A stretch of 64,000 bases of DNA from positions 6,696,609 to 6,760,608 of the forward strand of contig RPFO01000213.1 in the NCBI GenBank assembly GCA_009746045.1. Direction: 5' to 3'. Each line of letters starts with the position of its first letter. Position 1 is the first letter of the stretch. A program made the translations under genes and the position numbers. The notes below the pieces were generated by a model that searched no databases, had not been told where the DNA came from, and saw only the letters and a program-made list of their open reading frames with translations. The DNA is from Mesostigma viride (taxonomy: Eukaryota > Streptophyta > Mesostigmatophyceae > Mesostigmatales > Mesostigmataceae). Positions 26,695 to 51,130 of the stretch are shown here, one piece after another.

Positions 26695-27511
26695 CTACTC
26701 TACAGAGAGAAGGTTGTTCCAGTTGTTGGCTCCATCCGACGCCACAGGAAGCTTGCTGTCCGTCACCCAGTTGCCATCCACGATGAATTTGAACTGGTAC
26801 TTGCCCTGGACACACAAGGCAGAAGCGAGCAGCAAAGAACCAGAGAGCCACGGACAACAGTCAGCAAGCAGGAAAAAAAAACAATACGAACAACATATCT
26901 GAGTAAAATAGGACCTACAAGACCACAATCCAGTCAAGTTCCAGGACAAAGACATAAGAGACAACCAAAGGAAGATCCTGAAAATTAAGCAACACAGTGC
27001 AACGAATGGGCAAAGGGCCTCACCACTGGCAGGGAGAAGCGCTTGGAGAAGAAAGCACCCGAGCGGGCCAGCGGCTCGGCGATCCACCCGTTGAACGAGC
27101 CAGCCACTTTGACATCCGCAGTCGCTGGGTACCGCCACACAATCTCAACGCTCTTCATCTCCACCTCGGCACCCATCGACTCCTCCAGGTCCTCCATCGC
27201 CTCAAAGAAGGTGTCCTCCGAGCCGGCCTCCGAAAGGTCGCTCATGCTGCGCGAGGATGCCAGGCTGCGGGGCGCAGGGGGGGCCACCGTCAGCAGGTTG
27301 TTCCAGTTGTGGGTGCCGTCGAGCACGGTTGGCAGGCTGTTGTCAGTGACCCAGTTGCCGTCGACGATGAACTTGAATTGGTAATTGCCCGCGGGCAGGG
27401 CCAGGTTGGCAACCCAGCCATTGGCCGTGCGCTGCAGGGGCTCTGGCTTCCAGTTGTTGAAGGAGCCGGCGACCTTGACGTCACGCGCCGGGTGCTTCCA
27501 CGCCACCTCGA
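26695..27511 (-). other. C-terminal CBM48 domains 48-49 (exons 29-30)
   Basis: The last two domains differ from the array. They read GNYQFKF or GKYQFKF with Lys (not Arg) before Phe, and they end THNWNNLLTV or ANNWNNLLSV, closer to the classic AMPK-beta glycogen-binding ending with Asn-Asn. An acidic spacer (SEAGSEDTFFEAMEDLEESM) lies between them. Domain 49 is split by a phase-0 intron. The protein ends three residues after LLS, at the TAG at 26695-26697. These may be the founder-type domains. Confidence 0.8.

Positions 27512-51130: not shown

Follow-up and report, generated by a model that had tools for sequence, protein, structure and literature searches.

The AMPK beta subunit, whose glycogen-binding domain is the closest solved counterpart of the repeats described here, carries one carbohydrate-binding module (CBM) followed by a C-terminal domain that forms the complex by binding the alpha and gamma subunits. 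PTST1, to which PTST2 and FLO6 are related, represents a second type. PTST is described as a scaffold that binds starch via a CBM48 domain with tryptophans of the W100/W133 type. In Arabidopsis, the sites of starch granule initiation are determined by the thylakoid anchor MFP1, for which a transit peptide, a twin-arginine (Tat) signal and a short membrane-spanning domain are predicted; it turns soluble without signal and span, and is thought to expose its C-terminal part to the stroma (PMC10801857). The Chlamydomonas proteins SAGA1 and SAGA2 combine a starch-binding domain with repeated Rubisco-binding motifs and organise starch (PMC13167743), and the diatom protein PYCO1 carries KWSP stickers that act on Rubisco (PMC10288592). 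Here, a gene is described that encodes a predicted chain of 49 tandem CBM48 domains in the streptophyte alga Mesostigma viride; it is located in a stretch of 64,000 nucleotides (nt) of contig RPFO01000213.1 (positions 6,696,609 to 6,760,608), referred to as the window.

For plants and algae it is still debated what starts starch at a particular membrane or around a pyrenoid, and what keeps it there. In the 2026 SAGA paper it is speculated that other algae use unrelated starch-sheath proteins in which carbohydrate-binding domains occur together with copies of a lineage-specific Rubisco motif (PMC13167743), and the protein described here is a concrete and testable candidate for such a combination of carbohydrate binding and repeated motifs.

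Gene structure

The window is part of a 14.3-Mb contig in a 440-Mb assembly. The gene was modelled on the minus strand by dynamic programming using codon usage and splice matrices, which were trained initially on manually selected open stretches and afterwards on the model's own output; GT/GC-AG introns were permitted. The start codon at 51130 and the stop codon were fixed at the gene ends of the original prediction, so that these ends are not independent of it, whereas the exon chain between them was chosen by the model and is independent. From the 33 exons of the raw model, three mini-exons (6, 0 and 6 nt) were removed by judgement and the last exon was likewise set to the TAG at 26697-26695, after which the coding sequence (CDS) is in frame 0. 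With these preset ends and final edits, the model arrives at the figures originally predicted, i.e., 30 exons and 17,496 nt encoding 5,831 amino acids (Table 1).

All 29 introns have the form GT...CAG, 28 of them with a G at donor position +5. Their lengths range from 154 to 629 nt, the longest being intron 1, and from exon 2 onward no intron exceeds 389 nt. The G + C content is 64% in the CDS and 45% in the introns. For 29 of the 30 exons the best codon score falls in the frame of the model, the exception being exon 3 with its 37 nt. Since the codon table was derived from exons 4-30, only exons 1-3 test the frame independently; exons 1 and 2 pass this test and exon 3 fails it. The ATG at 51130 is the first one downstream of an in-frame stop.

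In total, 25 of the 29 introns are located at two homologous places, 13 in phase 1 at a domain boundary and 12 in phase 0 within a domain (intron 7, where the profile hit begins two residues later, was counted as a boundary intron). These two shared positions support one gene. On the basis of these positions and of the short introns from exon 2 onward, several genes inside the array were also rejected. From the sequence, a single gene with 49 CBM48 domains can be proposed with high confidence, and the array itself is nearly certain.

The model is weakest at the join of exons 1 and 2 and at exon 3 with its 37 nt. At least two genes might be present, with a proline-rich lumenal or stromal protein (exon 1, perhaps also exon 2) encoded upstream of a CBM48-array gene that has a start of its own. 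This is rather unlikely. Intron 1 is far longer than the next longest intron (629 versus 389 nt), an in-frame ATG is found upstream of exon 2, the frame score of exon 3 is ambiguous, and the start at 51130 was imposed and not found by the model; however, intron 1 has the donor and acceptor type usual in this gene, the phases fit, and exons 1 and 2 score as coding.

A long trinucleotide microsatellite of the ATG/GAT type was noticed by eye in intron 25 (about 28855-28965).

Table 1. Features of the CBM48-array gene; positions refer to the window.
Feature	Position	Strand	Description and basis
Whole gene	26695..51130	-	30 exons, 17,496-nt CDS, 5,831 amino acids; splice-aware model
Exon 1	50351..51130	-	P-V-A-E-K-rich stretch after the signal; no Pfam match
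Residues 1-61	50948..51130	-	transit-peptide-like, rich in S, R, A, P and T; composition
Residues 62-88	50867..50947	-	putative twin-arginine signal VSVSRRNMFALPVVLAAVMNEDPAMA|EE; pattern
Exon 2	49446..49721	-	splice-aware model, codon score
Residues 275-290	49632..49679	-	VPVLMTLGGAAGLSIL, second hydrophobic segment and candidate for a membrane span; hydropathy
Exon 3	49076..49112	-	37 nt; the least certain of the modelled exons
CBM48 array (d1-d49)	26698..48812	-	49 domains; locally built profile, Pfam scans
Exons 11-16	40145..45055	-	six exons of 648 nt each; 626-642 bases shared per pair (15 pairs), diverged introns between them
Linker d37-d38	32609..33085	-	159 residues; five SGWVKPPAP and one TAWVKPPAP
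Linker d41-d42	31088..31447	-	120 residues; four SGWVKPPAP
Exon 30	26695..26805	-	second half of d49 and stop codon TAG

Domains, fold and binding residues

A profile made from the repeats themselves finds 49 domains, the number counted in the original prediction. For the Pfam scan, which was carried out by exon, 29 exons were long enough and exon 3 was too short. PF16561 (AMPK1_CBM) scored above its curated cut-off in 24 of the 29, with an E-value of 2.8e-118 in exon 24, which holds eight domains. Exon 4 contains half a domain and reached 19.8 bits (cut-off 26.8 bits), and no PF16561 match was obtained in exons 1, 2, 27 and 28. In the whole assembly, PF16561 matches at 49 places within the gene and at six outside it, where a place does not equal a domain, as some places are half domains.

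Two further Pfam models, pullulanase X25 and CBM_48, exceed their cut-offs on the same stretches as AMPK1_CBM; these matches are taken as relatives of the CBM48 fold and not as enzyme domains. As originally stated, no enzyme family could be detected, none scoring above its Pfam cut-off in the 29 scanned exons. By computation, the repeats have the beta-sandwich fold known from the glycogen-binding domain of AMPK, and their best match in the PDB is AMPK beta, so that a different fold was rejected after the comparison. The likeness to the AMPK beta subunit is one of domain fold. An assignment of the whole protein as an AMPK beta or SIP2 subunit was rejected, as no Pfam family of the C-terminal domain was found in the scanned exons.

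Of the 49 domains, 46 form 23 pairs of an A and a B domain with 0-5 residues between the partners, and d1, d48 and d49 stand singly. The glucan-stacking tryptophans are mostly kept, W100 in 40 domains, W133 in 48 and both in 39. The protein is likely to bind alpha-glucan. The number of domains and the kept tryptophans make the extreme multivalent alpha-glucan binder of the original prediction a sound reading; the mass, given there as roughly 640 kDa, was calculated as about 631 kDa. Forty-nine such domains in one chain would represent an extreme of multivalent carbohydrate binding, and work on engineering starch or pyrenoids could naturally draw on the array for starch-adhesive modules.

The protein shares with PTST1 the CBM48 domain with W100/W133-type tryptophans. 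In contrast to PTST, which has one C-terminal CBM48 domain and a coiled coil, it has 49, and for this reason it was not classified as PTST, although its mode of action may be similar. In the open-access titles and abstract openings on CBM48 in connection with pyrenoids, tandem arrangements or giant proteins, no comparable multi-CBM48 protein was found, which is weak evidence of absence.

Exon duplication

The mean identity is 0.60 among A domains, 0.55 among B domains and 0.45 between A and B (0.56, 0.50 and 0.46 with the recent block excluded). As A domains resemble A domains and B domains resemble B domains more than the two resemble each other, the multiplied unit was mostly the pair. Exons 11-16 differ from one another at 6-22 of 648 bases. 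The five introns among them are 53-91% identical (10 pairs), and the identity falls to 41% once introns 10 and 16 on either side are included, with one pair aligned across only 52 columns. A duplication introduced by the assembly was rejected for this block, since the copies differ and the intervening introns have diverged to this extent. The exon copies are more alike than their introns, which suggests a conversion confined to the exons, and homogenisation seems to end at the exon borders; strong constraint on codons is the alternative. The exon-by-exon record, with its two intron positions and its alike exons between diverged introns, illustrates clearly how a gene grew by modules.

With respect to selection, each of the 15 pairs among exons 11-16 shows 0-10 nonsynonymous and 6-16 synonymous differences, even though most sites by far are nonsynonymous. 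In the pairs that include exon 16 the two counts are nearly equal (8-10 nonsynonymous, 6-12 synonymous), so that selection against change looks weaker there. This last observation would fit an array that was multiplied by unequal crossing-over and is tolerated without any special function, as would the recent duplication or conversion indicated by the near-identical exons and the reverse-transcriptase open reading frames (ORFs) nearby. Such an origin as the whole explanation is nevertheless highly improbable, given 17,496 nt without a stop or frameshift, the low counts of nonsynonymous differences (0-10, as opposed to 6-16 synonymous ones) in the 15 pairs and the retention of W133 in all domains but one.

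Linkers and tryptophan motifs

There are 25 linkers of at least 15 residues, in which A, P, S, E and K abound and I, L, F and N are scarce. They hold 31 tryptophans, with at least one in 20 of the 25 linkers, and 25 of the 31 are found within [APE]P[STA]W or SGWVKPP. In a four-domain structure model (predicted local distance difference test (pLDDT) 69.0, predicted template modelling score (pTM) 0.37), residues 165-232, which hold a 65-residue linker, all have a pLDDT below 50; apart from this low-confidence linker, the modelled portion of the array consists of beta domains. Aromatic motifs that recur regularly along a disordered spacer resemble stickers.

Like SAGA1 and SAGA2, the protein joins starch-binding domains with repeated short motifs. 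The differences are that the SAGA domains belong to CBM20 and those found here to AMPK1_CBM/CBM_48 (Pfam), and that the SAGA motif binds Rubisco, whereas here there is a tryptophan motif only. The linker motif also differs from the KWSP of PYCO1. The available part of PMC11570498 contains nothing that bears on the tryptophan motif.

If the linker motifs were the Rubisco-binding motifs of this lineage, the protein would be an organiser of the pyrenoid starch sheath, which ties starch to the Rubisco condensate as SAGA1 and SAGA2 do. In favour of this are the proteins speculated on for other algae (PMC13167743), the precedent of the repeated KWSP stickers (PMC10288592) and the presence of the motif in most linkers. 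Against it stands that the motif differs from that of PYCO1. A function of this kind, which had also been suggested originally, is considered unlikely, with Rubisco binding being hypothetical.

N-terminus and proposed role

Residues 1-64 contain 11 basic and 4 acidic residues. In the adjoining putative signal, VSVSRRNMFALPVVLAAVMNEDPAMA|EE, a twin arginine is followed by a 12-residue hydrophobic core and an A-x-A site (AMA|EE). This Tat-like pattern occurs once in the whole protein; when residues 1-260 were shuffled 20,000 times, it appeared in 70 cases. The second hydrophobic segment, VPVLMTLGGAAGLSIL, is positioned about 75 residues ahead of the array. A comparison of exon 1 with the PDB yielded a single, meaningless match (E-value 0.81).

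The order of a transit-like region, a Tat-like signal and a hydrophobic stretch fits the predicted layout of MFP1, with which the protein would share a stromal C-terminal part (PMC10801857). Unlike in MFP1, where this part is a coiled coil that governs the position of PTST2, it consists here of 49 CBM48 domains. The protein probably acts in the plastid; for a membrane anchor, the chances appear even. Of the plastid starch scaffold suggested originally, it is the plastid part that gains support from the transit-like and twin-arginine N-terminus. This N-terminus, the A-B pairing, the tryptophan motifs of the linkers, the two-position introns and the near-identical exons with diverged introns go beyond what had been noted before.

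The best reading, although its probability does not exceed one half, is a thylakoid-anchored multivalent starch tether, a single chain that would combine anchoring of the MFP1 type with binding of the PTST type. The scaffold would be imported into the plastid and its N-terminus inserted in the thylakoid (or pyrenoid-traversing) membrane, so that the 49 domains face the stroma. The domains, mostly tight A-B pairs on disordered linkers of 33-159 residues, would bind alpha-1,4-glucan weakly but many times over, and malto-oligosaccharides and growing amylopectin would be gathered at the membrane. Starch granules, or sheath plates, could thereby be started, held or spaced there, and a single chain would cover the roles that in Arabidopsis are divided between MFP1 as anchor and PTST2 as CBM48 partner. 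The tryptophan motifs may serve as stickers for docking of a partner, e.g., a starch synthase or Rubisco, or for self-association. Whether the protein acts in the placing or initiation of starch is judged to be an evenly balanced matter.

Several observations weigh against this anchored tether. The Tat-like pattern was defined only after the sequence had been inspected. Both hydrophobic segments are short, the mean hydropathy of residues 275-290 being 1.7 over 15 and 1.31 over 19 residues, and residues 202-220 reach a higher value (1.83 over 19 residues) though they contain P and E. The N-terminal exons are connected to the array via the 629-nt intron and a 37-nt exon with a codon score that does not favour the frame of the model, and exons 1-2 may be part of a different gene or splice variant. 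Among the domains, the first tryptophan is absent from eight B domains, 47 of 49 have Y or F in place of AMPK N150, and L146 has not been conserved, so that the specificity may differ from that of AMPK. In the model of a pair (pTM 0.58), the relative placement of the domains is uncertain.

Some of these points would also fit a soluble multivalent binder of the stroma or the granule coat, which cross-links or coats amylopectin and has no anchor. The hydrophobic segments of exons 1-2 would then merely be part of the transit peptide and a low-complexity region. Such a protein accounts equally well for the domain evidence and for the shortness of the segments, the second of which comes after a linker-like PSWRVP motif. 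The combination of RR, hydrophobic core and AxA is, however, rare in the shuffles, even if the pattern was chosen post hoc, and it directly follows the transit-like region; a soluble binder is less likely than the anchored tether.

The tether could further be extended to a single-chain organiser, in which a thylakoid anchor, dozens of low-affinity glucan domains and tryptophan stickers tie together the membrane, the starch and the condensate of a partner such as Rubisco. This is quite improbable. If true, algae would here have solved the placing of starch by an independent evolutionary route, with MFP1-like anchoring, PTST-like binding and SAGA-like linking fused in one protein.

Relatives and genomic surroundings

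No relative was found among 59 candidate stretches of viral contigs. In bacteria and archaea, which were searched by means of two short peptide patterns only, 99 stretches matched a pattern and 54 of these encode a relative. The best open frame has one domain in 53 of the 54 loci and four in the remaining one, an open frame of 503 amino acids of Mucilaginibacter (L014) with four tandem CBM48-type domains. Both this protein and that of M. viride thus have tandem AMPK1_CBM-type domains, four in the former and 49 in the latter.

The six PF16561 places outside the gene are distributed over five loci (L009-L013) of the assembly. The first of them, L009, has a phosphatase domain with SEX4, LSF2 and LSF1 as nearest solved relatives. 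In L012, one open frame (3044-4285, plus strand) encodes the C-terminal domain of a branching-enzyme-type alpha-amylase and a C-terminal AMPK1_CBM, which is interrupted by a long low-complexity insert. L010, where a CBM was found, is taken to encode a KIN-beta-gamma on the basis of its motifs; a CBS domain was not found in the three pieces scanned. In L011, PF16561 matched at two places. The SEX4/LSF-type, branching-enzyme-type and KIN-beta-gamma-like loci make a plant-type starch metabolism likely.

Within the window, an open frame of 1,020 amino acids is found at 4637-7696 (minus strand), with no Pfam match at an E-value of 0.1. The gene is adjoined on the opposite strand by two reverse-transcriptase ORFs at 17530-18717 and 24611-25255 (both plus strand; PF00078, E-values 2.8e-16 and 8.5e-8). 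About 91 kb beyond the window, the partly N-filled locus L013 (C1:6851966) contains at 3901-4128 (plus strand) half a CBM48 domain, GKYPFKFVVDGKPGVD, which resembles the repeats of the giant protein and is located about 0.8 kb from an open frame that by eye resembles a reverse transcriptase. The half domain is possibly a stray copy.
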